Source: Phycisphaerae bacterium (GTDB lineage Bacteria; Planctomycetota; Phycisphaerae; Sedimentisphaerales; Anaerohalosphaeraceae). Taken from it: a DNA stretch of 33,075 nucleotides. Below the pieces are notes generated by a model. It was not told where the DNA came from and searched no databases. It worked only from the letters and a program-made list of their open reading frames with translations. Each line of letters begins with the position of its first letter. Positions within the stretch are counted from its first letter, which is position 1. The position numbers and the translations under genes are program-made. Below, piece by piece: positions 4,388 to 30,596 of this stretch. The DNA is taken from assembly GCA_029858345.1 (NCBI GenBank), contig JAOUFG010000020.1:1-33075 (forward strand), given 5' to 3'.

Positions 4388-4397
4388 GGTACTCTCC

Positions 4398-5879: not shown

Positions 5880-5906
5880 TGTCTTCCTAAACGGTTATCC
5901 AACATT

Positions 5907-7697
5907 TCATTTGACCGGCGTTAACGTGACCGATCGGAGATTGATCGGCTGCCATTGCCCTTTTTTCGGGTTAATCTGGAGCGTATAGACACCGGCTTTG
6001 GACACTTCGATCTGCCCTAAACTCACTTTTTTATATTGCTCGAATCCGCTGGTCGAAGCAACTGCGGCCTGCAGTTTCGATGATCCAACAGCCACTTCAA
6101 ATTTTGTTTCAGCCGCCTCAGTCGATAAGTCAGCGATGACTTCAAATGAACCGCTCTGTTCAATCTCAAAAGTCCACTCGATCCAGGACCTGTTATCCGT
6201 CCACGAGCCGATATTCTGTTTGCCGTTTTTCCTTTCAAGTTTGGCATGGGTACCATAGCCGCGATTATGAATATCCGCCAGTTCAGCCGAAAGCGTAACC
6301 GTGCCTTTGTCGTTTTGCATCGGTAGGACCATTTCGACGTCCAGCGCCCCCGCCACCTTCAAAACCACCACGGTATCAATCGCATCCAGTGGCTTGGACG
6401 GCAGTTCAACCGTAACTCCGGTGTCATCTTTCGTGGTTTTAAGTTTCCCAAGGTCCGCCAGTAAATAGGCCTGCTGAACCTCATTTTTCAGTCCCTTCAG
6501 AACCAGTTTTCCATCCACAGGCCAGTCGAAGATATGAAGATAAAGCGTCGCACCGTTGATAAATGTCTTCTTGGTGCAACGACCCCATGAATGCTTTCGA
6601 AAGGGACTGGCCGTAGTTTCGTAGATTGATTCGCCGTTGACCTTCATCCACGCCCCGATGGCTTTTAAGCGTTCGATACTGGGCTGCGGGATTTCGCCTT
6701 CAGCGGTCGGACCGACATTCAGCAGATAATTGCCGCCCTTGCTGGCGATATCGACCAGGTTGCGGATCAGTGTTTCGGTGGATTTCCAATCGTGGTCATA
6801 GCTCTTAAAACCCCACGTGCGATTCATCGTCATACACGCTTCCCAGTCGCTATCAAGTCCCGTCGCCGGAATATGCTGTTCCGGTGTCGAGCAGTCACCG
6901 TCATAACCGCCACCAAGCCGGTTATTGGTAATGATACCCGGCTGCAAGCTAATAAGCGGCTGAAGCGCATCGGCACGTTCTTCATTCATATCATGCGGCG
7001 TATCCCACCACAGCACAGCAATATCACCATAGTTAGTCAGTATCTCCTTAACCTGCTCCGCCGCAATATTCTTAATATACTCATCCATACTGCCTTCCTG
7101 GGCCGGATCCCATTTTGTCCCACGCGCAGCGGCTCCACCGGGATGGTTCCAGTCCTGCGCCTGCGAATAATAAAACCCCAGCTTTATCCCATGCTTGCGG
7201 CACGCCTCAGCCAGCGGCTTGAGCAGATCCTTACCATAAGGCGTCGCATCAACGATATCCCAGTCGGTAACTTTTGAATCGAATAATGCAAAGCCGTCAT
7301 GATGCTTGGAGGTGATCACAATGTACTTCATCCCGGCTTCTTTGGCTAAACGCACCCACGCATCGGGATCATATTTAACGGGATTAAACTGTTTGGCATA
7401 CCCCTTGTATTCTGCCACGGGGATCTCGCCTCGCAGCATAATCCATTCGCCGATGCCTTTGATTTGCTCTCCTTTATAAGTCCCTGCAGGTACGGCATAG
7501 ACGCCCCAATGAATGAACATGCCGAAACGGGCCTGCCGCCACCAGGCCATCCGGGCATCCCGCTGTTCCCTGGTTTCATCCTGATACGGCCAGGAGGACG
7601 CCTGCACAGTTCCAATCAGCCCGCCAATAAAAATGCTGAATAAAACGATACAAATCGAACAGAAATTGGTTTGATGTGTGTGGCTCTGATGTCTCAT
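5907..7697 (-). CDS. secreted alpha-L-fucosidase, GH29
   Basis: The 596-residue precursor begins with a basic N-terminus and hydrophobic core (to about residue 30) and VQA-SS as a likely signal-peptidase site, so it acts in the periplasm or outside. The GH29 barrel follows: FGMFIHWGVYAVPAG, ITSKHHDGFALFDS, LGFYYSQAQDWNHPGG and GDIAVLWWDTPHD, with Asp232 as the probable nucleophile; Glu273 in CSTPEQHIP is a candidate acid/base. GGNYLLNVGPTAEGEIP is another hallmark. The last ~100 residues (GSFEVIADLSTEAAETKFEVAVG...) look like a separate beta-sandwich, possibly carbohydrate-binding. The ATG at 7697 is chosen because AAAGG precedes it and a signal peptide follows; an upstream ATG at 7814 would put a strong hairpin inside the gene. 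It supplies fucose to FucP. Confidence 0.93.
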   Translation of the reverse strand: MRHQSHTHQTNFCSICIVLFSIFIGGLIGTVQASSWPYQDETREQRDARMAWWRQARFGMFIHWGVYAVPAGTYKGEQIKGIGEWIMLRGEIPVAEYKGYAKQFNPVKYDPDAWVRLAKEAGMKYIVITSKHHDGFALFDSKVTDWDIVDATPYGKDLLKPLAEACRKHGIKLGFYYSQAQDWNHPGGAAARGTKWDPAQEGSMDEYIKNIAAEQVKEILTNYGDIAVLWWDTPHDMNEERADALQPLISLQPGIITNNRLGGGYDGDCSTPEQHIPATGLDSDWEACMTMNRTWGFKSYDHDWKSTETLIRNLVDIASKGGNYLLNVGPTAEGEIPQPSIERLKAIGAWMKVNGESIYETTASPFRKHSWGRCTKKTFINGATLYLHIFDWPVDGKLVLKGLKNEVQQAYLLADLGKLKTTKDDTGVTVELPSKPLDAIDTVVVLKVAGALDVEMVLPMQNDKGTVTLSAELADIHNRGYGTHAKLERKNGKQNIGSWTDNRSWIEWTFEIEQSGSFEVIADLSTEAAETKFEVAVGSSKLQAAVASTSGFEQYKKVSLGQIEVSKAGVYTLQINPKKGQWQPINLRSVTLTPVK

Positions 7698-7768
7698 TTT
7701 TGGGCCTTTCGATAGTCGAACTTGTGTACAACGATTTTCGAATCTAACCGTTAGACTCGATGGTTGCA

Positions 7769-7807
7769 GGGAACAGGCAGCTCTCCCGATACATCGGGAC
7801 TGTTCCC
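7769..7807. repeat. nested hairpin with CCCGAT-NN-ATCGGG core
   Basis: Outer arms GGGAACAG (7769-7776) and CTGTTCCC (7800-7807) enclose an inner CCCGAT-AC-ATCGGG (7785-7798), giving an uninterrupted-looking nested stem between the dehydrogenase and fucosidase genes. The same core palindrome recurs in the intergenic regions at 24723-24736 and 30682-30695. It lacks a T-run, so it is not an obvious intrinsic terminator. It could attenuate or stabilise the downstream GH29-fucU message; that is inference. Confidence 0.5.
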
Positions 7808-7869
7808 CAAACACCTTTTATTAACTATATGTAATTGTGTTTTGACCGAAAAATCAAGCAAAATTACGC

Positions 7870-12060: not shown

Positions 12061-13491
12061 CTACTTAATCGTCTCCGTGTCGGCAGCAATCCGTGTGATT
12101 TTTCGCGGCGGCAGATGCAGGGCCTGCTGGAAACAATCTTCCGCCGCTTCTTTAACGGCTTCCGAAAGGGTCGGATGCGCAAAAATCATTTCCGCCAAGT
12201 CCTTTGCCGATGCTTTCAGCGACAGCATGGCGGTCGCGCTTTCAATAATTTCTGTTGCGTTATGTCCGATGACGTGCACACCCAGCAGCGAGTCGTTGTC
12301 CTGATGACGAATGACACGCACAAAGCCGAATTCTTCACCTACGGCCATCGCTTTGCCCAAAAAGCCGGTCGGAAATTCACCGACGCGAATCGGGATGTTC
12401 TGCTGGTTGGCTTGTTTGACAGTGATACCCACAGAGGCGATCTCCGGGAAGGTATAAACGGCATTCGGCACCGGCAATGTTTGTGCCTCATCATGGCCGA
12501 GGGCGTTTTTGACAGCTACTTCGCCCTGTGCACTGGCCGCATGGGCCAGCAGACAGCGGCCGTTGGCATCGCCGATGCAGTAGTAATTCTTGACCGCTGT
12601 TTCCATCTTATCGTTGACGCGGATGAACCCGCGGTCGGTTTCCAACCCGATGCTTTCCAGTCCAATATCTTTGGTGTTGGGTCTGCGCCCGGTAGCAACA
12701 AGTACCTTATCGGCCTGGATGGTTTGTCCGCCGGAGATGGTCGCTTCCACACCGCCGTTTTTGGTTTCGATATTTTCGACTTTGACCCCGGTGTGGATTT
12801 TCATGCCGCGTTTGGTGAACACACCGGCCAGGGCCTGACCGAGTTTCGGTTCCATTTCCGGCAGCAGCGAGTCCATCAGTTCCACGATGGTTACTTCGAC
12901 GCCGTATTCGTGCATCATGCAGGCAAATTCACAGCCGATGACACCTCCGCCAACAATCAGCAACCGCTTGGGCAGCGTTTTCCAGTGCAGCGATTCGTCC
13001 GAGGTGCACACCCGTTCCGGATCCTCCGGCCAGCCCGGAATGCGGGCCGGAACTGAACCGGTTGCAAGGATGATTTTGTCAGCGGTGAAGGAGTCTGTTT
13101 CGCCCTTGTCATTCGTTACATTAACTTTACCGGCTCCATCGAGCATGGCTGTACCGGTGTAAAGCGTGACATTGCGGGCACCGAACAGGCCCTTGATGCC
13201 GCCGCGGAGTTTAGTCAGCACCTTGTCTTTGCGTTTTTGGATGGCATCCCAGTCAAATGTGACATTGCCGTCAACAGCAACGCCCAGCGACTTGGCCCCG
13301 TTGATGCGATGAATCAATTCGGCCGACGCCAGCAGGGCCTTGGAAGGGATACACCCGTAATTCAGGCAGGTCCCGCCGAGGTAATGTTTTTCGACCACGG
13401 CCGTTTTAGCTCCCATTTGAGCGGCCTTCAACGCGGCGATATATCCGCCGGGGCCGGTTCCGATGACTGCAATCTGATAATGTTCCGCCAT
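12061..13491 (-). CDS. lpdA: dihydrolipoamide dehydrogenase (E3)
   Basis: The 476-residue flavoprotein reoxidises dihydrolipoyl groups of the E2 subunit and passes electrons to NAD+. It shows the FAD motif VIGTGPGGYIAA, the redox disulfide GGTCLNYGCIPSK (Cys42, Cys47), a second nucleotide motif LIVGGGVIGCEFA, the GDANG...LAHAASAQG flavin-contact block, and the C-terminal AHPTLSE with His439 and Glu444, the base pair of the active site. Length matches the family. The ATG is preceded by AGGA. It follows the E2 gene by 51 bases and precedes the PHP-like gene by 15, so it is a dedicated E3 for this complex, although E3 proteins can be shared among complexes in the cell. Confidence 0.96.
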   Translation of the reverse strand: MAEHYQIAVIGTGPGGYIAALKAAQMGAKTAVVEKHYLGGTCLNYGCIPSKALLASAELIHRINGAKSLGVAVDGNVTFDWDAIQKRKDKVLTKLRGGIKGLFGARNVTLYTGTAMLDGAGKVNVTNDKGETDSFTADKIILATGSVPARIPGWPEDPERVCTSDESLHWKTLPKRLLIVGGGVIGCEFACMMHEYGVEVTIVELMDSLLPEMEPKLGQALAGVFTKRGMKIHTGVKVENIETKNGGVEATISGGQTIQADKVLVATGRRPNTKDIGLESIGLETDRGFIRVNDKMETAVKNYYCIGDANGRCLLAHAASAQGEVAVKNALGHDEAQTLPVPNAVYTFPEIASVGITVKQANQQNIPIRVGEFPTGFLGKAMAVGEEFGFVRVIRHQDNDSLLGVHVIGHNATEIIESATAMLSLKASAKDLAEMIFAHPTLSEAVKEAAEDCFQQALHLPPRKITRIAADTETIK

Positions 13492-13525: not shown

Positions 13526-13549
13526 AAACTAAAAACTAAGAACTACGAA
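13526..13549. repeat. AT-rich spacer sharing TAGTTTTTAGTT with 9655-9680
   Basis: On the minus strand the E2 stop codon TAG opens TAGTTCTTAGTTTTTAGTTT, which shares TAGTTC at its start and the 12-mer TAGTTTTTAGTT with the SDR-dehydrogenase spacer. No hairpin with a T-run is present here. Confidence 0.35.
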
Positions 13550-15564
13550 ATAAGCTGTTCCGGATCTTCCAGCAGTTCTTTCAGTGTCTTCAGGAATTGT
13601 GCTGCCAGCACGCCGTCGATCACGCGGTGATCCACGCTGAGCGTCATGGTCATCAACCGCCCCGGACGCATCGCGCCGTTTTCGACAATCACGCCTTCAC
13701 GAATCGCACCAACCGCCAGGATCGCCGACTCCGGCGGATTGATAATCGCCGAAAATTCTTCGGTGCCGAACATCCCCAGGTTCGTGATCGTAAAGATGCC
13801 CTTCCCGAAACCTTCGAGTTTCCCGTTGCGGGCCGATTCTACGACATTGCGGGTTTGGGTTGCCAATTGTTCCATCTTCATTCGGTCGGCATTCAGGACG
13901 ACCGGCACCGTCAGGCCATCATCGGTCCCGACAGCAATGCCGATATTGACCGCGGGCTGTTCGATGATCTCGGTGTCCTTGAACTGGCTGCGGAATGCCG
14001 GGTATTGACGAATCGCCTTGGCACAGGCCGCCGTCACAAAATCGTTGACGCTGCACTTAAACTGTTCTTTGGTCTTGCGATAAGTCGCAAACAGCAGCGT
14101 TGCATCGACGGTCACTTTGGCGTAGAAATGCGGAATCGTCTGCTTGGAATAGGCCAGGTTTTGGGCGATCGCTTTACGCATCTTAGACAGCGAATAAGAT
14201 CTCACCTCGGTCGAAACCACATCGGCGTTTTCCACGTCTGTTGAGATAATGCGGCCTTGCGGTCCGGAACCGCTGCCGATGGATGCCAGGTCGATGCCTT
14301 TGTCCTGTGCGGCTTTGCGGGCAGCCGGCGAGGCCTTGACGCGGCCGGATGCATCCGTAACTGCTGCCTGTTTAACGGTTTTAGCCGGAGTCCCCTTGGT
14401 TTCCACTTTAGCTGCGGTTTTTTCAGCTTTTTGAGCAGATGCTTCTGTTCCGCCGGCCACAGCGTCAACATTGACACCCTCTTCGGCCAGATAAGCCACT
14501 GGTTGTTTCACTTCGACAATGTCACCTTCGGCGGCAACGATTTTCGCAATGCGTCCGGCGTCCACCGCTTCCACTTCCATCGTCGCCTTGTCGGTTTCGA
14601 TTTCCATAATCACCTGGCCGACTTCGATGCGGTCGCCTTCCTTGACCTTCCACGACAGGATCGTGCCCTCTTCCATGCTCTGACCGGCCTGCGGCATCAG
14701 GATCGGGGTCACATCCTCCTGCTCGCCGGCTGGCTGGGCCTGAGGTTGGGCCTCTTTTTCAGGTGCCTTCCGTGTAGGTCTTTCGGGCTTTGACTGTTTT
14801 GGGGATTCTTTCTGTTCTTCCTTTTTCGGTGCGGGCTTCGGGGCCGGGGCCGCCTTTGCTTCGCTGCCGTCGAGATAGGCATCTACATCGGCGTCATTGG
14901 CGGCGATAAACGCCACCGGCTTTTTTACTTCAACAATATCGCCCTCTGCGGCAACAATCCGCGCCACGCGGCCGGCATCGGTGGCTTCCACTTCCATCGT
15001 CGCCTTATCGGTTTCGATCTCCATGATCACCTGGCCGACTTCGATGGTATCGCCCTCTTTGATTTTCCAGGACAGGATCGTCCCCTCTTCCATACTTTGA
15101 CCGGCTTGCGGCATCAGGATCGGGGTCACGTTATTCGCATTTCCAGAAGATTCAGAAGCCATTGCTTCCTCCTTTTGTGTATTTTGGGTTTGTTTTTCGG
15201 TCTTGTGTTGGGGCTTGGCCGTTGAGGCGGGCTGATTGTCCTGCGAGGTAGCGGCCCGCGGGGCCTGCTTGGCAGGGGCGGGTTTGTCCTCTTTTTGAAG
15301 CCGCGCCAACACCTTGGATGCATCCTCGCCTTTTTTGCCGAGGATCGCCAGCGGGTCGCCGGATTTGACGAAACTGCCGGGGGCGGCAACCTGCTTCAGC
15401 AAGGTACCATCGGAGCCGGATTCGATCTCCAGCAATTCGCCCGCCGCTTCGATCAGCAACAGTAAATCGCCCTTTTTGACGGTATCGCCTTCGGTTTTCT
15501 TCCATTCAGAAAGAATCCCGTCGAGCGAAAAACGCCCTTTTTCAGGGTATTTCACGATATTCAT
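13543..15564 (-). CDS. dihydrolipoamide acyltransferase (E2) with three lipoyl-type domains, the first lacking the lysine
   Basis: The 673-residue core subunit of a 2-oxoacid (or acetoin) dehydrogenase complex carries acyl groups on lipoyl-lysine and transfers them to CoA. Domain order: lipoyl-like domain 1 (about 1-77), Ala/Pro/Lys-rich linker, lipoyl domain 2 (about 146-232, Lys187 in ETDKATMEVE), linker, lipoyl domain 3 (about 285-370, Lys326), E1/E3-binding domain (about 409-445, KASPAARKAAQDKGIDL), and the catalytic domain (about 455-673) with DHRVIDG (His646, Asp650). Domain 1 has Gly42 where the lipoyl lysine should be, so it cannot be lipoylated. GGAG precedes the first ATG. It is the first gene of the leftward operon, facing the regulator and E1. 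Substrate (pyruvate, acetoin-like or branched) is not decidable from E2. Confidence 0.93.
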   Translation of the reverse strand: MNIVKYPEKGRFSLDGILSEWKKTEGDTVKKGDLLLLIEAAGELLEIESGSDGTLLKQVAAPGSFVKSGDPLAILGKKGEDASKVLARLQKEDKPAPAKQAPRAATSQDNQPASTAKPQHKTEKQTQNTQKEEAMASESSGNANNVTPILMPQAGQSMEEGTILSWKIKEGDTIEVGQVIMEIETDKATMEVEATDAGRVARIVAAEGDIVEVKKPVAFIAANDADVDAYLDGSEAKAAPAPKPAPKKEEQKESPKQSKPERPTRKAPEKEAQPQAQPAGEQEDVTPILMPQAGQSMEEGTILSWKVKEGDRIEVGQVIMEIETDKATMEVEAVDAGRIAKIVAAEGDIVEVKQPVAYLAEEGVNVDAVAGGTEASAQKAEKTAAKVETKGTPAKTVKQAAVTDASGRVKASPAARKAAQDKGIDLASIGSGSGPQGRIISTDVENADVVSTEVRSYSLSKMRKAIAQNLAYSKQTIPHFYAKVTVDATLLFATYRKTKEQFKCSVNDFVTAACAKAIRQYPAFRSQFKDTEIIEQPAVNIGIAVGTDDGLTVPVVLNADRMKMEQLATQTRNVVESARNGKLEGFGKGIFTITNLGMFGTEEFSAIINPPESAILAVGAIREGVIVENGAMRPGRLMTMTLSVDHRVIDGVLAAQFLKTLKELLEDPEQLIS
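15160..15176 (-). promoter_or_regulatory. strong internal ribosome binding site and start within the E2 gene
   Basis: Inside the E2 frame, AAAAGGAGGAAGCA immediately precedes an in-frame ATG at 15162 (residue Met135, MASESSGNANN). This is a near-perfect Shine-Dalgarno at ideal spacing, better than that of the annotated E2 start. Initiation here would give a 539-residue E2 with two functional lipoyl domains and without the lysine-less first domain. It may mark an old gene boundary where a separate small lipoyl-like gene fused to E2. Confidence 0.55.
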
Positions 15565-15730: not shown

Positions 15731-16642
15731 ATGACATCAACAATTCAACAAAGACGAGACGAGATACTTTCGCAGGTCTATCAATCCGGTCATGTCTCTG
15801 TGCGTCAGGTTGCAGAGCGGCTGGATGTTTCTGAAGCCACCATCCGCCGGGATCTGCATGAATTGGCCGCCGAAGGACTGCTTGAACTGACCCACGGCGG
15901 GGCCACCGTCACACGAATCAGCGATTATTCTTTTCTCTCTAAGTCTACCCGAAACATCGAGGCAAAGAAAGCCATTGCTGAAATTGCAGCGGATATTATT
16001 TGTGACGGGGACCAGATATTCCTGGACTCCGGCACAACGTGTTTTGTGACCGCCCCGGTCTTACGAGGCAAAAAACAGCTTTCCGTTATCGTTAACTCGG
16101 TCCGGACAGCCCAGGAACTCCATGCGCCCGGAGTGGAGGTTTTGCTGCTGGGCGGACAGTTTCGACAGGACCGAATGGATACCGCCGGACCCATCGCGAT
16201 TGAAACGCTGGAGCATTTCCGCGGATACCGGGCGTTTCTGGGCGCTGACGGAATCAGCATGGATGTCGGGCTGACCTCTGTGGATATTGAGAGCGCGCAT
16301 GTCAATAAACTTGCCGCCAAAAACGCGAAAGAATCTATTTTGCTGGTCGACAGCAGCAAATTCGATAACCCTAAACTGTATAAAATCGTGGACTTCGAGA
16401 CGCTTTCTCTGGTGATTACTGAAAAGCAGCCGCCGGCGGAATGGATGTCATTTTTCGACGCCTGCCAAATCGATGTTCTGTACTCAAAAGAGTCATCTGT
16501 AAAAAAAAAATTAACCCATATTCATAAGGACCATCAAAATGCCAAAATGTCAGATTGTCAACCCCGAACAGGCACGGAAGAGCGGTCAGATCGAATTCAA
16601 ACCGATTCCGATCAATCAATACAAGACCCCGGTCAAGGATGA
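15731..16642 (+). CDS. DeoR-family transcriptional regulator; 3' end affected by an A10 tract
   Basis: The protein has the DeoR N-terminal helix-turn-helix (about residues 6-58, [28 protein letters not shown]) and the phosphosugar-sensing C-terminal domain (IFLDSGTTC near 97-104, VNS, LGG, GADGI, and LLVDSSKF near 205-211). It should repress catabolic genes until a sugar phosphate binds. GAGG precedes the ATG. Family members have about 250-260 residues, but this frame runs to 303 and overlaps the E1 gene by 104 bases. The extra 43 residues follow a run of ten A (16501-16510), are hydrophilic and not protein-like. In either other frame a stop occurs at once: TAA at 16512-16514 or at 16525-16527. 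The functional protein probably ends near Lys260. Confidence 0.88.
16501..16510 (+). other. A10 homopolymer at the natural end of the regulator
   Basis: Ten consecutive A residues encode the end of the domain (Val-Lys-Lys-Lys). A one-base shift in either direction, by polymerase slippage, ribosomal slippage or a sequencing error in the run, would end the regulator at TAA 16512-16514 or TAA 16525-16527. The latter stop overlaps the AAGGA that serves E1 and lies 11 bases before the E1 start codon, a normal operon junction. Confidence 0.6.
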
Positions 16643-19013
16643 GCTAAAGCGCTACAGCAAAGAGGATATGATTCGCATCCAGCGGGACATGGTCATTATC
16701 CGCACCTTTGAGAACATGCTGAACGAAATCAAACTTCGCGGCTCTTTCATGGGCGTCGAATATATGCATAAAGGCCCGGCCCACCTGTCCATCGGTCAGG
16801 AAGCCGCCGCGGTCGGGCAGGCCTATCATCTCGGCATTGATGATCACATCTACGGCAGCCACCGCAGCCATGGTGAGATTCTTGCCAAAAGTTTGTCCGC
16901 GATCGAAAAACTCGATGACAAGTCGCTCATGCAGATTATGGAAAATTATTTCGATGGCGAATGCCTGAAGATCGTCGAAAAGGACGCTTCCGGCAGTGTC
17001 AAGGATCTGGCCATTGATTTCCTGATCTATGGCACACTCGCTGAAATCTTCGGCCGCGAACCCGGTCTGAACAAAGGCATGGGCGGTTCGATGCACGCGT
17101 TCTTCCCGCCGTTTGGTGTTTACCCCAACAACGCCATCGTCGGCGGTTCCGGCGACATCTCCGTGGGTGCAGCCCTGTTCAAGAAAGTCAACAAAAAGCC
17201 GGGCATCGTCATCGGCAACATTGGCGACGCCTCCTCGTCCTGCGGGCCGGTCTGGGAAGGCCTGTGCTTTGCCACAATGGACCAGTTTAAGAAATTGTGG
17301 GATGAATCGCATCGCGGCGGACTGCCCCTGATCCTGAACTTTTACAACAATTTCTACGGCATGGGCGGCCAGCCGGAAGGCGAAACGATGGGCTTCGGTG
17401 TTCTGGCACGTCTTGGTGCCGGTATCAATCCCGAACAAATGCACGCCGAACGTGTGGACGGCTACAATCCGCTGGCCGTGGCTGATGCGATCCTGCGGAA
17501 GCGCGACATCCTCGAAAAAGGCGATGGTCCGGTCCTGCTGGATACCATCACTTATCGTTACAGCGGCCACTCACCGTCGGACCAGAGCAGCTACCGCGAA
17601 AAGGCGGAAATTGAAGCATGGCAGGAACACGACCCGACCGTGCATTTCGGCAAAGAATTGATCAAGGCCAAAGTCTGCGATGAGGGCAAGATCGAAGAAC
17701 TGTGGAAATACGCAGAAGTACTGGCTGTAAAGGCATGCAAGAAAGCTGTCGATTTGTCAATCTCTCCGCGTGCGGATCTGATGAAGCAAAACCATCTGCT
17801 TGAACAGACGATGTATTCCAACCAGAAGATCGAATCGATGGAGCCGGGCCGTAAACCGGATGTCCTAATCTCCACCATTGAAGAAAATCCACGTACCAAA
17901 GGCCTCGAATCCCGAAGCCGCTCGGCGTACGACGAAAAGGGTGAACGCCTCAAAGATACCCGCTGCATCGGCGTTCGTGACGCCCTTTTCGAAGCCATCA
18001 TCGACTGCTTCTATACTGACCCGACGCTGGTCGCTTATGGCGAAGAAAACCGTGACTGGGGTGGGGCATTCGCCGTTTACCGCGGCCTGACCGAAGCCCT
18101 GCCCTATCATCGCCTGTTCAACTCGCCGATTGCCGAAGGGGCCATCGCCGGCACCGCCGTTGGGTATGCCCTGGAAGGCGGGCGTGTCCTGATCGAACTG
18201 ATGTACTGCGACTTCCTCGGACGTGCCGGCGATGAAGTGTTTAATCAGATGTGTAAATGGCAGTCCATGAGCGGCGGCCTGCTGAAAATGCCGCTGGTCA
18301 TGCGTGTATCCGTGGGCAGCAAATACGGCGCCCAGCACAGCCAGGACTGGACCGCCCTGTGTACCCACATTCCGGGCCTGAAAGTGGTCTTCCCCGCGAC
18401 ACCTTACGATTCCAAGGGCTTGATGTACTCGGCGCTGCGAGGCACGGACCCGGTGATCTTTTTTGAAAGCCAGCGCCTGTACGGAGCCGCTGAAGAATTC
18501 GTCGAAGGCGGCGTGCCGAAAGAGGCCTACGAAGTGCCCTTCGGCGAACCGGCCGTTCGCACTGAAGGCAATGACCTGACGATTTTGACCATCGGCGCGA
18601 CACTGTACCGCGCCCTCGATGCGGCGAAGATTCTCGAAAAAGAGTACGGCCTGACCTGCGACGTCATCGACGCCCGCACGCTGGTGCCGTTCAACTACGA
18701 AAAAGTGATCGAATCCGTCAAGAAAACCCGCAAGATCCTGCTGGCCTCGGACGCCTGCGAACGCGGCAGTTTCCTGCATACCATGGCCTCGACGATCAAC
18801 ACGCTGGCGTTTGACGAATTGGACGGCCCACCGGTGGTACTGGGTGCCCGCAACTGGATCACCCCGCCGGACGAAGTCGAAGAAGCATTCTTCCCGTACC
18901 CGGCTGACTTCCTGGACACGGTCAACGAGCACATCATCCCGCTCAAAGGATACGCAACAAAACGCCCCTGCTCCGCTGAGGAATTGATCCGCAGGAATAA
19001 ACACGGGATTTAA
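16539..19013 (+). CDS. fused E1 alpha/beta thiamine-diphosphate 2-oxoacid (or acetoin-type) dehydrogenase
   Basis: The 824-residue protein joins both E1 subunits in one chain. The alpha part (about 35-410) has [33 protein letters not shown] and a thiamine-diphosphate motif [17 protein letters not shown] (Gly229-Asp230) ending at LNFYNN; the usual GDG is GDA. About 45 extra residues (near 118-164) lie between SHRSHGE and [10 protein letters not shown]. The beta part (about 475-824) has [10 protein letters not shown] (Glu533), [21 protein letters not shown] (His600) and the transketolase C-terminal domain [14 protein letters not shown]. It should decarboxylate or cleave the substrate and reductively acylate the E2 lipoyl arms. 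AAGGA lies 8 bases before the ATG. E2 and E3 are transcribed divergently from the same control region. Substrate unassigned. Confidence 0.92.
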
Positions 19014-19095: not shown

Positions 19096-22000
19096 TTACC
19101 TGGGCGAGGGACTGTTTGCGTTCAGACGATTGCACAACTGCTCGATCTGTTTGTTTCCCGGCGAGGCGGCCATCGCTTTGGCGAGAGCTTTCTTTAGTAT
19201 TCCATCGGTTTCGCTTTCAAAGGTATCATAAAGCCGCAGGAGTACCTGTGCCGAAGCGTCTTTGACGGAGGACACCGGACACGATAAGGCCTCAACCAAG
19301 CAATTCATCGCTTCCGGGATCTTCATGCCGTGCCTGAGGATGATGTCCGGCAGTTCGGGGTCCGTCACCGAAGCCGCATCGGTAATCAAACGAACGGCAT
19401 GAACATGCTCGGGCAGCTCAACATTGGCCATCAGGCAATAGGATTTCACATAGTCCCGCAGCAGCCGCAGCCAGCGATGATCGGTGGTGAAGGCGTTATA
19501 GGACAGGTCTGCATAGCGAAGTTTCCGCGGGTTTCCTTTTTTGTCAGCATACAACAGGCGGCGGTTGTGATAATAGACTTCGACGGCATCCAGCATCGCC
19601 ATCAACAGCGATTCTCCGGTAAAGCCCCGGAACTTGATGCCGTTGGGCCGCGATTCAGAATCTCCGAAATCCGCATCGCAGACCGTGCGAATCAGGCCGT
19701 CCTGATGATGGGCGACCACGGGGGTGCCGCTGGCGTGGGCCTCCTGTTGGCTGATTCCGCAGGGCTCGCCCACTTCGCCGCCGGACGGCATGACGAAGTA
19801 TTGGCTGCCGACATACAGGTTACGGTATAATGACGGAGACAAGGCACCTTGCGGGTAATAGCCGAATCGCCCATGGAACTGCGTCAGGGACCGGATCCGT
19901 TGAAAATGCATGTCAAACCGACGGCCGTCAAACGAATCTTCGACGCTGCCGCAGACGACATATTGAATCCGCTCGTCACGGGAGAGAAAATACTCCAGCA
20001 CTGTCGGCCCCATCATTTTCCACGGTTCGTAAACAACCCAGCGTTTGCCGTGGTCTTCATAGACTTTCCAGTCCAGCAGAAGCTCAAAGCCCTTCTGCTT
20101 ACAAATACGATGGAGCATTGAAAAAATCACGTGTTTCGTCAGGCTGTCGTCGGGCCGGAGCCGGAGGTTGGGGTCGTTTTGAAGGCCCGCCTTGGCGAGT
20201 TTTTTGGCGCGGGTGTATTTGGCAAAAAGCCGCTTGCGGGCCGCGGTACGATACACTTCCAGTATGCTTTTCTTGCTGCGAAACCAAAAACGCTGACGCG
20301 CAGCCATGTTAAACCCATTGCGGCGGCCCAAAAAACGCCCTTCCGCATCCATCTGCCGGAAAAGAGACGCATATCGAAAAACCTGGGGTTCGTCGAGGAT
20401 TCGCTGTTTCATGGCCCGGCTGACCGTTCCGATATGATGGGAGGTCCTGAGCATCATATACGTCATGTCAATTTGTCCGCCGGCAGGCCCTTCGGGATTG
20501 ATGCAGGCGTCGGCATGGACAACGGCATCCATCCCCAGCACCAGGCAATAAAAATACCTGCGGAACGGGTTGGCTTCCTCCATTTTGATACTGTATGACG
20601 GATGCGGATTGTGCATCATGCTGACGACGTGGGTGTTTTGGAAATGCGGGTCCGTATTGTATTGGGGCCAGCGATCCAGATAAGCGGGAACAAGCCATGT
20701 CGGCCATTCATTCGTCTGGATAATGGTGGGGTAATAATTATAGGCCCGCAAGGCCTCCAGCGCTCCCTGCGACAGAACGCGCGCACGGCGGAGTTTATCT
20801 TCTCCTGTTTGGCCGCCATAAGGAGCATCAAGGTATTTACCGTTTTCCAGGTAAAGCACCTCGACTCGAACACGCTTGCCGTGTTTTTGACGGAGTAAGC
20901 TGGTGTGGAGAATGTTTACCACATCGCCAATCGTATTGCGAGAGATGGACTGGGTCTGTTCATCAAATTCCGGGAACTGAATTCTGAAACTGTGGCCATC
21001 ATAACGGGGCGTATAGTTTTTGATGATTTTATCCCGATGCTTTTCATATAAGGGCGTTACGACGACAATATGAAATCCAAGCTCGCTGAGGACATCGGCA
21101 ATGTCCGTGGTATAGATTCCGACACCGCCGGCGTGGCCGCTGTATTGGGATTCCGGAGACACCAGCGCAATGGTGCCGAGGTTCATTCCATGCAGGATGT
21201 CCGCGGCGGCCTGACACGTATGATTTTGAAATTCGGCTCTGTCGTTTACCGCAATCCGCATCAGATGCTGGATAATTGTCTTACGCCGCCGGGCGTCATC
21301 TTCACTGATTTCCTTCAGCAACAGCGAAAGGGTGGTCAGGCCCAGCTTCCGTTTTTTATGAATCCAATCCGTCAGCAAAACAAAAAGGGATGTAAATTTT
21401 GGATAGCCCTCTTTGATGTTCAAGCCGGCGGCATCGTAAAACGCATTGGCACTATAACTGTGACGGACACGGTCGTATTTACCGTACCGTAAATACCGGA
21501 CAAATGAATCCACCAGCAACTGCTGTTGACTTTGTAAATCATTTTTCTCATGTATCTCATAGACGTGCGAAGACACCGGATCAATCGATCCGCCAAACCC
21601 CAGGCACGTCAGTTCGTGTCCCGACCAGTGCTCTTTGTAGATCTGGCGGCGCGAACGGCTTTCGGTGTTACTGTACAGCTCTGTAATCTCGTAGATTTTT
21701 TCCACATGAATCTGCTCTGCAAGAGATTGCCCGCATCGGTATTGCAAGTGGAAATTAAAGGCCCGCGACACGGCTGCCTGGCCCTCTGAATGGGGATCCG
21801 GAAAATTAAAGATACATAAATACGCCTGTCCCTTATAGAGCCGCAAAAAAGCGGCAATCCGGGCATTTTGCGTTTTTATCGGGACCAATTCCCCCCGAAT
21901 AAATGCGGGGTGTTTATCCACAAAATTAAAGAGCCGCCGGAGGTATTTTCCAAAACCAAACAGGATCGGGTAATTGGAAATAATCTGCCAGCGTGCGCGG

Positions 22001-24624
22001 TTTTCATCATCCCATGGATGCCGAAACCGGTTATTGACCCAGTGCTTCCAGCACTCGGTATAGGCCTCGTCAAATCGCTGCTGCATGGTTCCGGCTTCCG
22101 GCCCCGGCAGACGGCTCATGTGATACATCATCGGCCCCTGACTGCTTAACACCAGCAGCGCCGCGGCGGGCCAGATCATATTCTGATAATTGCTCGCGGG
22201 AGATTCTTCGTCATGACTGTTAAACAGGGACAGGGTTTGCCCCCCCTGCCGACGATAAACCGTGTTCAGATACGCAAAATTATCATTGAGGCCCAGCGGC
22301 GCATTGACATCCTGGCCGCTGCGGATGTGCTCCAGATTTTTAATCAGTGAATTGTAGGGAATGGTGCCGGACCGGATCATGCGCGTTTCATTACCGTGCC
22401 ACTGCTCGGAGTAAACCAGCAGCGCGTTGGGAACGGCTTTCTGCACCTTATAGCACAGATACAGCAGCGGAATATTGGCCTCTTCGGTCCCGCGCAGATC
22501 CACCGCTTCAAACCCCTTCCCGACAACGTCTCCCAGAAGACGAGACGAACCGTTCAGGCCCGAGTGAATGGGAAACACCGTATCAAATCCGTGGCCTACA
22601 TCCACACGAAGACCGAATCCCATCGCAGCCAACTGAGTTGCCAGTTCCGCAAGGAAATCGATGTTGGAAAAATCCCGCATGTTGACCATAAAGCTGTCAA
22701 GCCACTCGCTCCATTCTCCGTCCCATCCGGCGCGCGGACTCAGGCCGCCCTTTGCGTTGACGATATACACCGGGAACCGGTATCGAAACGACGTGTTGGC
22801 GCGAGAGTAGTGAGACAGGATACAAAGCAGCACCTTCATTCCCAGTGCCTCGGCTCTTTGGCGTAATCGCAGCAGGCCTTCAAGGCCGCCCAAATCCCGC
22901 CGAACGGTCTTTCCGTCGAGAACCGAAAACACAGACGGGTCCGGACCGGCTTCTCCCGCCCAGCCCAGTTCGAGCGCTCCCAGCGGATACACGCGGGTAT
23001 AGCCCTCATTCCGAATGGCCTCGAGCTGATCGGCGATGTCATCAAAGGTTCCATAAACAAACATCCCGTTTTCGTCTTTGACCGGTCTGTATTGTTCATC
23101 AATGCGCAGATTAAACGTGTCGGCATAGAAACTCAAGACACGCTGGCCTCTCTCGTCAGCGACATATTTCAGCAGGCCATGCGAATGCTCGTCCAACTCC
23201 TCCCATTGCCAGTTTTGGCCGCCGTCCGTGGAAAACTGAACCGAATAATGAATCCAACCGCTTCGAGCAGGAAAAACAGCAGAAAACGTCATGACTCCCC
23301 CCTGCTGGATACTTCCCACAGGCGTCATCGGTATCGCTTTTTTTCTGCGACCATTCACCAACCACAGCACACAGACCTTAAAACACTCTTTTCGAACATT
23401 TCGAGGTTTACGAACTCCAATGGTAACGGCCGCACTTTCAGAGCGAAATACGGACCGGTTGATCCGACTGGGCGGAAATGTGAAAGGTCTTTCCGTCAGA
23501 ACATCCTCCAGCAGCGCACTGACTTCCAGACAAATGGACCGGCAGATGCCCTTGTCCGGATGGTTCCAGTAATACAGCGCCGAATACAAAATTCGATAGG
23601 CCTGCTCAAGGCATTCCTTTCGGCGGATTTTCTTTGCAAGCTGGTCGATTGCGCTTCTGACATGATGAATGTCCTCAGACAGCAGCATCTGCTCGAGTAT
23701 CTTCAGGGAAGGGTCTTTGGAATACGCCTGGAGTTGGTCGATCCATTCGCCAATCCAGTGACCATGATCGTGAAAGATATCCGTTCGCACAGAACCACAG
23801 CGAACAGAAGTACAGGCAAATTCCGTACTCATCGCATCCATCAGCCCGGCCGCACAGAGGCGAATCACCTTCAAGAGCTGATTCTGTAATTGATAGACGA
23901 TGACAACAGCGTCGGCCTCTATAAAAATCCTCTTGAAACCGGTCAGGAATGTGATGTCCCGCGAGACGGTCTTGGGCAGTGTTTCCGGAGCCGTTCTGGC
24001 AAAAGCCGCGATCGCCTCCTTAATCCTCGGACGGAGACGAGCGCCAATTCCCCGGGCGGTAGCAAAAATGGTCTTTGCTGAAGACGTCGAAGCCAACCGA
24101 TTCCAAAAACGGTCCAGCAGCATCAAATCGTCAACCTGACGGAGCGATTCCAGCCAATCGGGTTCATTGAACGCTTCCGCATGGTTCTGAATTTCCTGAA
24201 TTGAGGCGTTCCGGATAGACTCATGCTTGCAGAGGAATCGCAGTGTATGCAGACGAATCTGAGTCACATGCAGTTCCGGGTTGCACCAGTGGTAAAGCAT
24301 TCGATACAGGATTCCAACCAGCAGTTGCTGACGGTGTTTAAGCCGACCTTTGTCGGGATCCAGCAACGCGGCCTTTAAAAGAATCTCATGCGATAATAAG
24401 CAGGCCGGGCCTTCCAGGACATCGACAATCCTTAGTTGAACCCGTTTATGTGTTAACAAGCCGCAAAAAGAAGCGGTGTCATTTTTGATCAGTTCATACG
24501 TTTGCAGCAGCGCCGAATCGAGAAGTGCTTTTTGCTCTTTGCCAAGCTCTTTGAACGTCGATTCGGCGCAGGTGTACCGTAACGAACCCGAAGCATCATA
24601 GTGAAATGAGATCATGGTGTTCAT
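19096..24624 (-). CDS. giant GH13 alpha-amylase/maltosyltransferase-like and GT5 glycogen synthase-like fusion
   Basis: The chain has 1842 residues from the ATG at 24624, chosen because AGGGA lies upstream; an ATG at 24657 has no ribosome site. Positions below count from that upstream ATG; subtract 11 for this start. Residues 1-400 are helical and unrecognised. About 405-500 is a beta-sandwich (SGWIHYSVQFSTDGGQNW). About 530-960 is a GH13-type barrel with FGLRVDVGHG (Asp686), VYSEQWHGNE (Glu751) and FNSHDE (Asp816); the first conserved region reads LCILSHYS, so the usual Asp is Cys. About 1155-1720 is a GT5-like synthase: ALVSPESQYSGHAGGVGIYT, IIQTNEWPTW and EPCGISQQEAHASGTPVV. A helical tail follows. 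No signal peptide or membrane segment. It probably makes or remodels alpha-glucan storage polymer; architecture recalls fungal alpha-glucan synthases. It is monocistronic here. Confidence 0.85.
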   Translation of the reverse strand: MNTMISFHYDASGSLRYTCAESTFKELGKEQKALLDSALLQTYELIKNDTASFCGLLTHKRVQLRIVDVLEGPACLLSHEILLKAALLDPDKGRLKHRQQLLVGILYRMLYHWCNPELHVTQIRLHTLRFLCKHESIRNASIQEIQNHAEAFNEPDWLESLRQVDDLMLLDRFWNRLASTSSAKTIFATARGIGARLRPRIKEAIAAFARTAPETLPKTVSRDITFLTGFKRIFIEADAVVIVYQLQNQLLKVIRLCAAGLMDAMSTEFACTSVRCGSVRTDIFHDHGHWIGEWIDQLQAYSKDPSLKILEQMLLSEDIHHVRSAIDQLAKKIRRKECLEQAYRILYSALYYWNHPDKGICRSICLEVSALLEDVLTERPFTFPPSRINRSVFRSESAAVTIGVRKPRNVRKECFKVCVLWLVNGRRKKAIPMTPVGSIQQGGVMTFSAVFPARSGWIHYSVQFSTDGGQNWQWEELDEHSHGLLKYVADERGQRVLSFYADTFNLRIDEQYRPVKDENGMFVYGTFDDIADQLEAIRNEGYTRVYPLGALELGWAGEAGPDPSVFSVLDGKTVRRDLGGLEGLLRLRQRAEALGMKVLLCILSHYSRANTSFRYRFPVYIVNAKGGLSPRAGWDGEWSEWLDSFMVNMRDFSNIDFLAELATQLAAMGFGLRVDVGHGFDTVFPIHSGLNGSSRLLGDVVGKGFEAVDLRGTEEANIPLLYLCYKVQKAVPNALLVYSEQWHGNETRMIRSGTIPYNSLIKNLEHIRSGQDVNAPLGLNDNFAYLNTVYRRQGGQTLSLFNSHDEESPASNYQNMIWPAAALLVLSSQGPMMYHMSRLPGPEAGTMQQRFDEAYTECWKHWVNNRFRHPWDDENRARWQIISNYPILFGFGKYLRRLFNFVDKHPAFIRGELVPIKTQNARIAAFLRLYKGQAYLCIFNFPDPHSEGQAAVSRAFNFHLQYRCGQSLAEQIHVEKIYEITELYSNTESRSRRQIYKEHWSGHELTCLGFGGSIDPVSSHVYEIHEKNDLQSQQQLLVDSFVRYLRYGKYDRVRHSYSANAFYDAAGLNIKEGYPKFTSLFVLLTDWIHKKRKLGLTTLSLLLKEISEDDARRRKTIIQHLMRIAVNDRAEFQNHTCQAAADILHGMNLGTIALVSPESQYSGHAGGVGIYTTDIADVLSELGFHIVVVTPLYEKHRDKIIKNYTPRYDGHSFRIQFPEFDEQTQSISRNTIGDVVNILHTSLLRQKHGKRVRVEVLYLENGKYLDAPYGGQTGEDKLRRARVLSQGALEALRAYNYYPTIIQTNEWPTWLVPAYLDRWPQYNTDPHFQNTHVVSMMHNPHPSYSIKMEEANPFRRYFYCLVLGMDAVVHADACINPEGPAGGQIDMTYMMLRTSHHIGTVSRAMKQRILDEPQVFRYASLFRQMDAEGRFLGRRNGFNMAARQRFWFRSKKSILEVYRTAARKRLFAKYTRAKKLAKAGLQNDPNLRLRPDDSLTKHVIFSMLHRICKQKGFELLLDWKVYEDHGKRWVVYEPWKMMGPTVLEYFLSRDERIQYVVCGSVEDSFDGRRFDMHFQRIRSLTQFHGRFGYYPQGALSPSLYRNLYVGSQYFVMPSGGEVGEPCGISQQEAHASGTPVVAHHQDGLIRTVCDADFGDSESRPNGIKFRGFTGESLLMAMLDAVEVYYHNRRLLYADKKGNPRKLRYADLSYNAFTTDHRWLRLLRDYVKSYCLMANVELPEHVHAVRLITDAASVTDPELPDIILRHGMKIPEAMNCLVEALSCPVSSVKDASAQVLLRLYDTFESETDGILKKALAKAMAASPGNKQIEQLCNRLNANSPSPR

Positions 24625-24672
24625 AGACAATCCCTGAATACAATATACCAATCCCATAAAAAATTGCGCTCA

Positions 24673-26958: not shown

Positions 26959-28992
26959 CTAAGAAGGTGTGTCTGTGGTTTCCGATCTGTTTCGCGATCC
27001 CCTGCCGGAACCGCGCGGCACCTGGTCCCGAGACCTGGAACCTCCGCGGCTGCCTGAGGGGGCCATTTCCTTGGCATCGATAAAACCGTCCTCGTTCACA
27101 TCCAGTTTTTTCAAAAATTGCTTTGCCTGCTCCGGCACCTCGTCCGACAAACTGATCTTCCCGTCACCGTTTGTATCCATCTGTTTGAATCTGTCGCTGA
27201 CGGGGTTAGAATCGGACACGGGCTGGCCGGTAGAGGATGGGGTGTTTTCTTCGGAACGGCCCTGCCAATCATCGGAACGGTCCGCTGTCAACTGGCCGGA
27301 CATCTCATCAAATAAGGGTGGATTCAAAAGAACCTCTTCGCCTTCTTCCAGTCCATCCAGAATTTGTACCAGCGTATCCGTGAACTCGCCGGTCTGCACG
27401 ATGCGTTCTTTGGGGCCGGTAGCCGTTGCCACATAGCAGACCTTTCGCCCGCTGCGGTTGGTAACAACCTGAACCGGAACCAGCAGCGCATTCTCAATCC
27501 GCCGGTTAAGAATTTCAACCCTGCACGACATACGGGTTTTGAGAAAATCATGTGTTCCGTCAACACTCACCAGGGTCTCATAAACCTTCAGATCAGGGTT
27601 CATCCATCCTCGCTGCTGGTCAGGCAACGAAGCCACTTCCAAAACCCGACCCTGCAGGATTTTATCGGGGAAAGCATCCATCACAATTTGTGCCGGTTGA
27701 CCCGGACGGACCTTTTGCACCTCTGTTTCATGAACGCTAACCTCGGCGACCATGGCCGCGGTATCCGGCATCGAGATAATCGTCTGTCCTTCGTAAACCG
27801 CTTCACCTTCAGCGATGATCCCGCTCCCGCCGTAGCTGCCGCGCCGGTAGGACCGGAACATATCGCCGCTTCCACCCTCCCCGTAGATTACCAGTCCCGG
27901 AGCAATGGCCCGAATGGTACAGTGTTCGATCTGCTTTTTGTAATCATCGACGCGACTGCGCTGTGAAGTAAAACTTTCCTGGGCATTACTCAGACGGGCC
28001 TGAGCCTGTGCCAGACGTGAACGGCATTCGGCATAAGTACGCTCCATTTCACGGCCGGCTTCGATATAGTTACTGAGGTTTTGCTCTGCGTTTTTGGGGA
28101 AATCATAGCTGAGGAATAAATCCAGGTTCACCTTGGAATTCTGATAGGCAAACTCGCGGCTGATGACACTCAGGCGGTCCCGCTCCAGTTCCAGATCGGA
28201 CACGTACTCAGCAGCGTGCAGTTTTTCTGTACCGACCAGCGTATCTTCGGCCGTCGCCAGATTACCTTCGGCCAGCACGATCTCGTCCCGCAGTTTTTTG
28301 AGATCCTGACCGGCCAATGACCCGTCCAGCAAATTCGGCTCGTTGTTGACACGATCCAGGAACGGTGCCACATGCGAACTCAGATCCTCGGTCTGGCCGA
28401 TTTTCGCGGTCATCTGTTCGGCTAATTCTTTGCCAAGATATTTTTCAAGATCCATCAAAGCAAACCGCACCTTCAAACGGGCGGCGGCTACGGCACTTTC
28501 ATTTTGAATGATCTGAATATCATAGGCCTCTTTAGAAGCGGTGTAATTCTCTTGAGCACTGACAAGTTCCATCTCTTCCCGCTGCAGTTGGTCCTCCATC
28601 GTCGAAGCGTCCAGTTCCACAAGCACCATCCCGGCGTCGACATCCTCCTGAGTAATATAAGTACCGGGAGGAACAACACTCAGAATTGTGATTTCCCCGC
28701 CGCCGCGTCCGCGTTCGACCCGGCATTTGTATTGTATGGAGTCCTTGGCCCGGATACTGCCGCTTTCGGTGACGGTAACAACCAAGTCACCCCGGCGAAC
28801 CTTAACGGTCTGCCCGTTGCCCACATCAGATCCGCCCCGTGAGATAACGAATAAAATGGAGGTCGCCACAACCACCACAACAAACAGAGAAAGAACCAGC
28901 GGCCCCATTTGTTTTTTATTACGCAATGGTTTTCCCGTTTTTTGTTCAGTATTCCCTTTTAGTATCAATTTTCGCTCTCTATCTGGCTTCAT
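26959..28992 (-). CDS. membrane-fusion (HlyD/MacA-type) adaptor with C-terminal EF-hand pair
   Basis: The 677-residue periplasmic adaptor has an inner-membrane anchor (about 31-50), a beta-barrel/lipoyl half (about 60-130), a long helical hairpin (about 130-355) with many heptad-like stretches, the second lipoyl half and beta-barrel (about 358-500), and a membrane-proximal domain to about 560. Unusually, it then has two EF-hands: Asp606-Asn608-Asp610...Asp617 and Asp631-Asn633-Asp635...Glu642, followed by a Gly/Ser/Arg-rich tail. The ATG at 28992 overlaps the preceding stop as ATGA, so it is translationally coupled to the outer-membrane factor. It should bridge the ABC permease and the outer-membrane channel; the EF-hands may make this calcium-responsive, which is inference. 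Confidence 0.92.
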   Translation of the reverse strand: MKPDRERKLILKGNTEQKTGKPLRNKKQMGPLVLSLFVVVVVATSILFVISRGGSDVGNGQTVKVRRGDLVVTVTESGSIRAKDSIQYKCRVERGRGGGEITILSVVPPGTYITQEDVDAGMVLVELDASTMEDQLQREEMELVSAQENYTASKEAYDIQIIQNESAVAAARLKVRFALMDLEKYLGKELAEQMTAKIGQTEDLSSHVAPFLDRVNNEPNLLDGSLAGQDLKKLRDEIVLAEGNLATAEDTLVGTEKLHAAEYVSDLELERDRLSVISREFAYQNSKVNLDLFLSYDFPKNAEQNLSNYIEAGREMERTYAECRSRLAQAQARLSNAQESFTSQRSRVDDYKKQIEHCTIRAIAPGLVIYGEGGSGDMFRSYRRGSYGGSGIIAEGEAVYEGQTIISMPDTAAMVAEVSVHETEVQKVRPGQPAQIVMDAFPDKILQGRVLEVASLPDQQRGWMNPDLKVYETLVSVDGTHDFLKTRMSCRVEILNRRIENALLVPVQVVTNRSGRKVCYVATATGPKERIVQTGEFTDTLVQILDGLEEGEEVLLNPPLFDEMSGQLTADRSDDWQGRSEENTPSSTGQPVSDSNPVSDRFKQMDTNGDGKISLSDEVPEQAKQFLKKLDVNEDGFIDAKEMAPSGSRGGSRSRDQVPRGSGRGSRNRSETTDTPS

Positions 28993-30596
28993 GGTTTTGT
29001 CTCTTCCCACATTCCATCCGGAAGTACGCGCAGGATACCGACGTCCCGGAAAAAAATTAATTTTGCTGTCATGTGATCAACCAAGGCGCTAACCACATCG
29101 TTCTGTGCCTGTACCAAGGCATCTTCTGAATCCAACAAAAGCCGAACCGTGCCGCGACCGGTCTGGAGCGAGAGTTTTTCAACTTCCACCCGTTTTTGAG
29201 CCAGTTCCAGACCGATTTTTTGAATGCGATAACTCTCGGTCGTCTGAACCATTTCCCGGTAGGCGGCACGAACCTGAAGTTTGATCTTGTCAATTTCTTC
29301 ATCATAATCACGCTGTTGTTGGCGTACATTAATCAATGATTCACGGTACGCATTTCGTTGATTCACACGATCAAGCGGCAAATCCGCCATAATCCCCAAA
29401 GAATAATCCCCATCATGAAATCGCAGCCTGGTCAGTTCGGTATCCGGCGTTGATTCCACATTTGCTGCCGCAACGAAAACAACCTGCGGGCCCAATCCTT
29501 CAGCTGCCAGTATCAATTTACGTTCGCTATCATCCAACCCGTCACGTACATTGGCTAAATCCAGTCGCTGAACCAGAGCTATTTGAATCGCTTCTTCAGC
29601 CGAATAGTCCGGCAGATCGACCCCGATAACATCCAATATCCTTAATTCGTTAGGATCCAGTTGAATTTCTATATCGGTCGGTAACGCAAGTCTGATCTTG
29701 AAGTTATCCAGTACTTGTTCGTAACTTTGCACGGCGGAAACAACACCTTGTTCGCCGCTGAGCAGCCGCTGTTCGGCTTCTGCCAGATCGTATGCGGGCC
29801 GTTTCCCGACCTCAACTTCCATACGCAACTGGTTGGTTGAATCGACGAGTCGTTGATAGCTTGCTTTCTGGATTACAACGCTGGCTTTTTGCTGTAAAAC
29901 ACGATAATAATCTGAAATAATCGAAACAACAAATGTCTTCCGATAGCGATTGAATGATCTGATGTTATACAAGATGTTTCGCTCGGCTTGGGTGAGGTTT
30001 TCACGTGCCACTTTACCAGCACCATTTCCCAGCAGTGGAGCTTCAAGGGTCGCACTCAATACCGATGCCAGCGAAGTCTCTGGATCTCCGGTCAGAAACC
30101 GTGTCCAGTCCACTGCCAACCCCGCCCCGATAAGGATACCATCGCCCAGCAGAAACTGCTGGTTAACACCGCCTTGGGCATTAAAAGGCGTTTCTTCTGT
30201 ACCGTCGGATGTTTCATAAAAAGCATCAATCGTACCGAACCACTGCCGGGCATACTGATGACGAACCGATGTCAGGTCAAGGGCTGAAAGATAGAGGGAT
30301 TCTTTTCGATTTTGATAATCTCTGTTATACCTCGTGGAAATTCCTACGGCCTGCGCCTGGCTCAATGTCCCCGACGGCGGGATTAATTTTATCACATCCA
30401 GCGCATTCGGCTCACCATCTGTTACTTTATAATTGGCCTTGTATCCGAAGCTATCTTTCCACTTCTGATCAAGGATTGTGTACACTTCCTCATCGGCCTG
30501 CTCTTTAAACTGTTCCGGCGTCGTGCAGCCGAAAAAGCAAATCGCAAAAGCCGGTGTCATTAACAGACCTGTGATGATTTCTTTTACGCGAATCAA
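28989..30596 (-). CDS. TolC-family outer-membrane efflux lipoprotein
   Basis: The 535-residue protein starts at TTG (30596) with GAGGA five bases upstream. The start gives a textbook lipoprotein signal: MIRVKE, a hydrophobic core and FFGC with Cys24 as lipidated residue; the first ATG (residue 13) would remove the basic N-region. Long helical stretches in two repeats (about 95-300 and 330-520), such as YDLAEAEQRLLSGEQGVVSAVQSYEQ and RQQQRDYDEEIDKIKLQVRAAYREM, are typical of outer-membrane factors. It is the first gene of the four-gene exporter operon, overlapping the adaptor by 4 bases. It forms the exit duct for the substrate. Length and arrangement match the NodT/TolC group. Confidence 0.92.
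   Translation of the reverse strand: MIRVKEIITGLLMTPAFAICFFGCTTPEQFKEQADEEVYTILDQKWKDSFGYKANYKVTDGEPNALDVIKLIPPSGTLSQAQAVGISTRYNRDYQNRKESLYLSALDLTSVRHQYARQWFGTIDAFYETSDGTEETPFNAQGGVNQQFLLGDGILIGAGLAVDWTRFLTGDPETSLASVLSATLEAPLLGNGAGKVARENLTQAERNILYNIRSFNRYRKTFVVSIISDYYRVLQQKASVVIQKASYQRLVDSTNQLRMEVEVGKRPAYDLAEAEQRLLSGEQGVVSAVQSYEQVLDNFKIRLALPTDIEIQLDPNELRILDVIGVDLPDYSAEEAIQIALVQRLDLANVRDGLDDSERKLILAAEGLGPQVVFVAAANVESTPDTELTRLRFHDGDYSLGIMADLPLDRVNQRNAYRESLINVRQQQRDYDEEIDKIKLQVRAAYREMVQTTESYRIQKIGLELAQKRVEVEKLSLQTGRGTVRLLLDSEDALVQAQNDVVSALVDHMTAKLIFFRDVGILRVLPDGMWEETKP

Follow-up and report, generated by a model that had tools for sequence, protein, structure and literature searches.

The window, which is the whole stretch of DNA analysed here (contig C127, 33,075 bases, from a genome with a completeness of 99.5%), carries on its minus strand one uninterrupted open reading frame with both a GH13-type and a GT5-type domain, confirming that the two are joined on a single chain, as proposed by the original prediction without mention of the strand. 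The frame is open from 24657 and, counted from the first ATG, spans 19096-24657 and encodes 1853 amino acids. The starts of the orthologues coincide with residue 12, corresponding to the ATG at 24624, and a GGGA stretch lies just upstream of this codon, so that a start at 24624 is preferred, yielding a protein of 1842 amino acids with a mass of about 211 kDa. The end coordinate given originally, 24624, fits this better start. An assembly chimera or a fused pseudogene can be ruled out, since about 20 genomes hold an intact or near-intact chain. The peak hydropathy over 19 residues is 1.41 and no transmembrane-like segment is seen, bearing out the predicted absence of a membrane part, and the protein is presumably soluble and cytoplasmic. 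The features are as follows, with residues numbered according to the 1853-residue frame and with approximate domain boundaries:

19096..24624 (-): complete GH13-GT5 fusion gene, 1842 amino acids plus stop; frame open from 24657, start as in orthologues
23458..24624 (-): N-terminal alpha/beta domain, mostly helical, residues 12-400; confident model, orthologue identity 39%
23158..23457 (-): beta-sandwich before the GH13 barrel, residues 401-500; strands in the model, position as in neopullulanase/MalZ and GlgE
21808..23157 (-): divergent GH13 barrel and start of the C-terminal beta region, residues 501-950; motifs, profiles and fold
22600..22602 (-): D686 codon, predicted GH13 nucleophile (LRVDVGH); invariant in 19 orthologues, aligned with eight references
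22405..22407 (-): E751 codon, predicted GH13 acid/base (SEQWH); invariant in 19 orthologues, assigned by motif
22210..22212 (-): D816 codon, predicted GH13 transition-state stabiliser (NSHDEE); invariant in 19 orthologues, region IV aligned
21538..21807 (-): C-terminal beta region of the GH13 unit, residues 951-1040; profile matches, conservation and model
21178..21537 (-): helical linker between GH13 and GT5, residues 1041-1160; model helices, pLDDT about 90
19423..21177 (-): GT5 glycogen/starch-synthase-type GT-B domain, residues 1161-1745; profiles and fold
20092..20109 (-): GT5 donor site R1517...K1522 (LHRICKQKG), equivalent to R300 and K305 of E. coli GlgA by alignment
19765..19767 (-): GT5 E1631 (EPCG), equivalent to E377 of E. 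coli GlgA by alignment
19099..19422 (-): C-terminal helical tail, residues 1746-1853, poorly conserved; model helices, identity 34%

The assignment of the GT5 domain is secure by both profile and fold. PF08323 matches it with 73.4 bits against a cut-off of 22.7 (E 3e-20), and TIGR02095, the profile for GlgA of the ADP-glucose type, with 101 bits (E 5e-29), far under its cut-off of 328. The model of the domain (pLDDT 82, pTM 0.80) has starch synthase IV as its best match in the PDB (5e-19) and superimposes on E. coli GlgA with a TMt of 0.72. Furthermore, H1349, R1517, K1522 and E1631 align with H161, R300, K305 and E377 of E. coli GlgA, respectively, and the lysine of the KTGG loop is replaced in the same alignment. 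In E. coli GlgA this lysine touches the donor, so that its loss makes a donor other than ADP-glucose plausible. A search of the organism's own genome returned nothing above the cut-off for GlgC; the lost lysine and the lack of a clear GlgC together hint at such a different donor.

That the preceding region is a divergent GH13 domain is supported, rather than proven, by motifs, weak profile matches and a structure search with a low-confidence model. A Pfam search finds no match to PF00128 in the fusion protein itself, and two of 19 orthologues match it weakly; PF16657, the C-terminal domain of maltogenic amylases, is matched by 18 of the 19 (best 3.7e-5). A profile search of the PDB retrieved sucrose isomerases as well as trehalose synthases, with values of about 1e-4 to 1e-3. 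In Foldseek, the top 50 matches of the modelled N-terminal half are all GH13 proteins (E about 1e-11, probability 1.00), obtained with low TM-scores and a low-confidence barrel (pLDDT about 30-60 over much of GH13); maltodextrin glucosidase-type and neopullulanase-type enzymes come first, GlgE is found at rank 20 and a single branching enzyme at rank 39. When compared profile to profile with GlgB and GlgX of E. coli and with the cyclomaltodextrinase-like GH13 protein of the own genome, the family gave nothing informative, its alignment being too shallow. All three catalytic acids nevertheless appear intact, as had been predicted, since D686, E751 and D816 are invariant in 19 of 19 full or near-full orthologues, as are R684, H815 and H616. 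D686 falls on the nucleophile column of all eight reference GH13 sequences, D816 lines up with region IV in seven of the eight, and E751 of region III is assigned by motif, having been left unaligned with the references by MAFFT. The position of the region I aspartate is unusual for GH13, with a cysteine in 17 of the 19 orthologues and an aspartate in two. A pure GlgE identity is not supported, with PF11896 (GlgE domain N/S) matched by one orthologue of 19 at an E-value of 0.23 and a fold rank of 20. The earlier leaning towards a maltosyltransferase could thus not be upheld, GlgE ranking behind the maltodextrin glucosidase/neopullulanase type in structure matches and motifs. A pure GlgB identity is not supported either, with no PF02806 in the fusion or elsewhere in the genome and the branching enzyme at rank 39 by fold.

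The N-terminal 400 residues gave no convincing match in a Pfam search or a PDB sequence search. Their model is confident (pLDDT about 80-95 across most of residues 12-400), and the region, described originally as a 400-residue helical N-terminus, is indeed mostly helical and contains a small beta-sheet in addition. Mean pairwise identity among the orthologues reaches 70% in GH13 and 68% in GT5, compared with 39% in the N-terminus, 47% in the sandwich, 46% in the linker and 34% in the tail. Since both catalytic domains are far better conserved than their flanks, both are probably active, judging from sequence. Pairwise distances of the GH13 and GT5 domains correlate (r = 0.90), which fits their inheritance as one unit.

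Within the scans made, the architecture is limited to one planctomycete order. In the Sedimentisphaerales (Planctomycetota) it is present in 26 of 161 genomes, belonging to two families (f1 and f7). A search of 59 relatives gave 20 matches, including 18 real fusions, every one within the family of the window; G007 and G042 were rejected as carriers, being weak matches to other glycosyltransferases. Across the phylum (392 genomes), full-length matches are confined to two f1 members, the others being ordinary domain-level matches. A scan of 84,980 species, which needs exact conserved peptides and misses distant relatives, found 24 fusion loci, all in Planctomycetota and mostly in Phycisphaerae (e.g. 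Sedimentisphaerales, Anaerohalosphaeraceae). GH13 proteins of 1300-1500 amino acids from other families of the order were also considered, and both of those scanned proved to be debranching enzymes of the AGL type rather than the fusion. Such two-domain AGL-type enzymes (GH13 plus GDE_C, about 1400-1500 amino acids), with a eukaryote-like layout, lie at L080:4039-8265 (-) and L082:5740-10281 (+).

A search covering part of the literature turned up no account of a bacterial protein combining GH13 with GT5, and the available part of a 2024 review on prokaryotic alpha-glucan enzymes describes TreS-Mak fusions and mentions no GH13-GT5 fusion (PMC11046441). With one order in the scans and no description in the literature searched, the protein does not present itself as a common, characterised family; its parts are of known kinds and, as far as the available sources go, their combination is new.

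Family searches of the own genome found no GT3 synthase, no GlgE and no match to the PF02806 branching enzyme (GlgB), the fusion included, so that neither glgE nor glgB turned up elsewhere. One further clear GH13 protein, cyclomaltodextrinase-like, and two alpha-glucan phosphorylases are encoded. On contig C185 (L084:5729-10394, plus strand), a glycosyltransferase (452 amino acids), a GH57 protein (406 amino acids) and an archaeal-type glycogen debranching enzyme (694 amino acids) are clustered, a grouping that likely forms the organism's core alpha-glucan pathway. Almost every relative searched, whether or not it has the fusion, encodes a GH57 protein of comparable length, and the fusion is therefore probably an accessory rather than a housekeeping synthase. 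The suggestion that it may make a storage glucan unaided is unproven: with this cluster and the two phosphorylases also present, the fusion is not clearly the sole or principal glucan synthase. An enzyme beside a glycosyltransferase on contig C118 was considered as GalU and rejected, since by eye its sequence and neighbours resemble RmlA in a dTDP-rhamnose cluster.

A parallel fusion, in which GH57 precedes GT5 on a chain of about 912 amino acids, is found in eight of the 59 relatives, mostly from other families, with one f1 genome among them; three of the eight chains were confirmed by Pfam. Loci of this type are L090:4836-7568 (+), L091:3981-6710 (+) and L092:4495-7245 (+). None of the 18 genomes with GH13-GT5 carries GH57-GT5, as against eight of the 41 others, a distribution that hints at mutual exclusion (Fisher two-sided p = 0.09, one-sided 0.04, with relatedness ignored).

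In the vicinity of the gene, three genomes of the genus to which the window belongs have TolC/HlyD/ABC/MacB-like exporter genes beside the fusion. Between fusion and exporter lies a gap of 250 bases; no exporter linkage was seen in the other genera checked, and the neighbourhood is conserved within this genus only. In the window, the OEP-HlyD-ABC-MacB set beside the fusion includes an HlyD/MacA-type membrane-fusion protein with C-terminal EF-hand calcium-binding motifs (26959-29010, minus strand). On the other side, the alpha and beta regions of pyruvate dehydrogenase E1 are joined in a single chain of 824 amino acids (16539-19013, plus strand), near an E3-like flavoprotein (12061-13491) and an E2 in which lipoyl domains are matched three times (13543-15564). 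A cluster for the use of L-fucose, composed of fucose isomerase, an FGGY kinase and an alpha-L-fucosidase with CBM6, occupies 2675-7814 (minus strand).

On balance, we lean slightly towards the fusion being a soluble bifunctional enzyme that would synthesise and remodel an alpha-glucan, as suggested by residues and models. The GT5 half would draw on a nucleotide-glucose donor to lengthen an alpha-1,4-glucan, its GH13 partner on the same chain would cut and/or transglycosylate the same glucan, thereby providing primers, trimming or rearrangement, and the N-terminal helical domain and the linker would act as a scaffold. We infer activity of both sites, a glucan chain shared by them as substrate and storage of the product. 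This two-site reading is supported by the same architecture across the order, the retained catalytic residues and the conservation of both domains, by the organism's phosphorylases and debranching enzyme, which could use the product, and by the fusion of GH57 to GT5 in sister lineages. It is weakened by the low-confidence GH13 model, the region I cysteine and the loss of the KTGG lysine, by the conserved GT-GH57-debranching cluster, which competes with the fusion for the role of main synthase, and by the fact that the presence of the fusion does not follow the absence of GlgB.

It is unlikely that GT5 alone is catalytic and that the barrel now serves as a glucan-binding or structural module. 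The distance of the barrel from known GH13 families and the exchange of the region I aspartate for cysteine in most orthologues would fit such a loss of activity, but nucleophile, acid/base, stabiliser and the Arg/His residues are invariant, and the barrel is the best-conserved part of the protein. Branching activity of GH13, by which the protein alone would make branched glycogen and replace GlgA and GlgB, has quite a low probability. The lack of a PF02806 enzyme in the own genome and the region IV SHDE motif, common to the fusion and GlgB, are consistent with it; the closest neighbours by fold and motif are instead maltodextrin glucosidase and neopullulanase, then GlgE. Replacement of GlgB by the fusion was rejected, as there is no anticorrelation within the family of the window, where a PF02806 enzyme accompanies the fusion in 4 of 18 genomes and occurs in 5 of 17 that lack it (p = 0.71). 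Improbable, finally, is a bacterial analogue of Ags1, in which GT5 would make an alpha-1,3 or mixed glucan and GH13 would join chains, possibly with export by the neighbouring MacB/TolC-type exporter, because the shared domain order (PMC5753165) and the exporter genes in the three genomes stand against the missing membrane part, the lack of exporter linkage in the other genera checked, the 250-base gap and the fact that the glucan linkage is not set by domain order alone.

The synthesis and remodelling of one glucan by two sites can be extended to a tentative and rather doubtful proposal of a self-contained soluble factory, in which GT5 would polymerise glucose from a non-ADP donor, with priming or rearrangement of the chain in cis by a new GH13 subfamily, the whole having evolved apart from Ags1 and in parallel to GH57-GT5. 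If both sites work, the protein would be a natural one-chain maker and shaper of alpha-glucan in a genome without GlgB or a clear GlgC, would expose a GH13 group missed by standard profiles, and would offer a testable answer to how priming can be coupled with elongation without glycogenin or a separate enzyme.

Compared with known systems, the fusion shares with fungal Ags1 the order of GH13 and then synthase domain on one chain; in Ags1 the GH13 part is extracellular and membrane spans are present, whereas the fusion has no membrane span or multi-membrane C-terminus, the two being compared by description (PMC5753165). The resemblance to alpha-1,3-glucan synthases noted in the original prediction is thus a formal one of domain order (PMC5753165). 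With GlgA and starch synthase IV, the GT5 half has in common the GT-B fold and the catalytic His, Arg, Lys and Glu, but it differs in the missing KTGG lysine, a score far under the TIGR02095 cut-off and the attached GH13. Its EX7E pattern (E1631, E1639) resembles that of aligned GT4-like sequences, a further difference from GlgA and starch synthase IV. The GH13 half is most similar to maltodextrin glucosidase, neopullulanase and cyclomaltodextrinase, which provide the best fold matches and share the N-terminal beta-sandwich and, in MalZ, an RLDVVH-like motif; the GEIWH-like motif of neopullulanases presumably resembles that of the fusion as well. In contrast to these enzymes, the fusion evades PF00128, mostly has a cysteine in place of the region I aspartate and carries GT5. 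GlgE (GH13_3) likewise shows a fold match, a beta-sandwich ahead of the barrel and a D-x-x-H behind the nucleophile, but PF11896 is nearly absent among the orthologues, and the own genome is without GlgE. Finally, in GH57-GT5, too, a GH domain acting on glucan precedes GT5 within a single chain, the differences being that GH57 replaces GH13, the chain is about 912 amino acids long and GT5 retains the KxGG lysine. The occurrence of both GH13 and GH57 fusions to GT5 within one order suggests that such coupling is favoured there.
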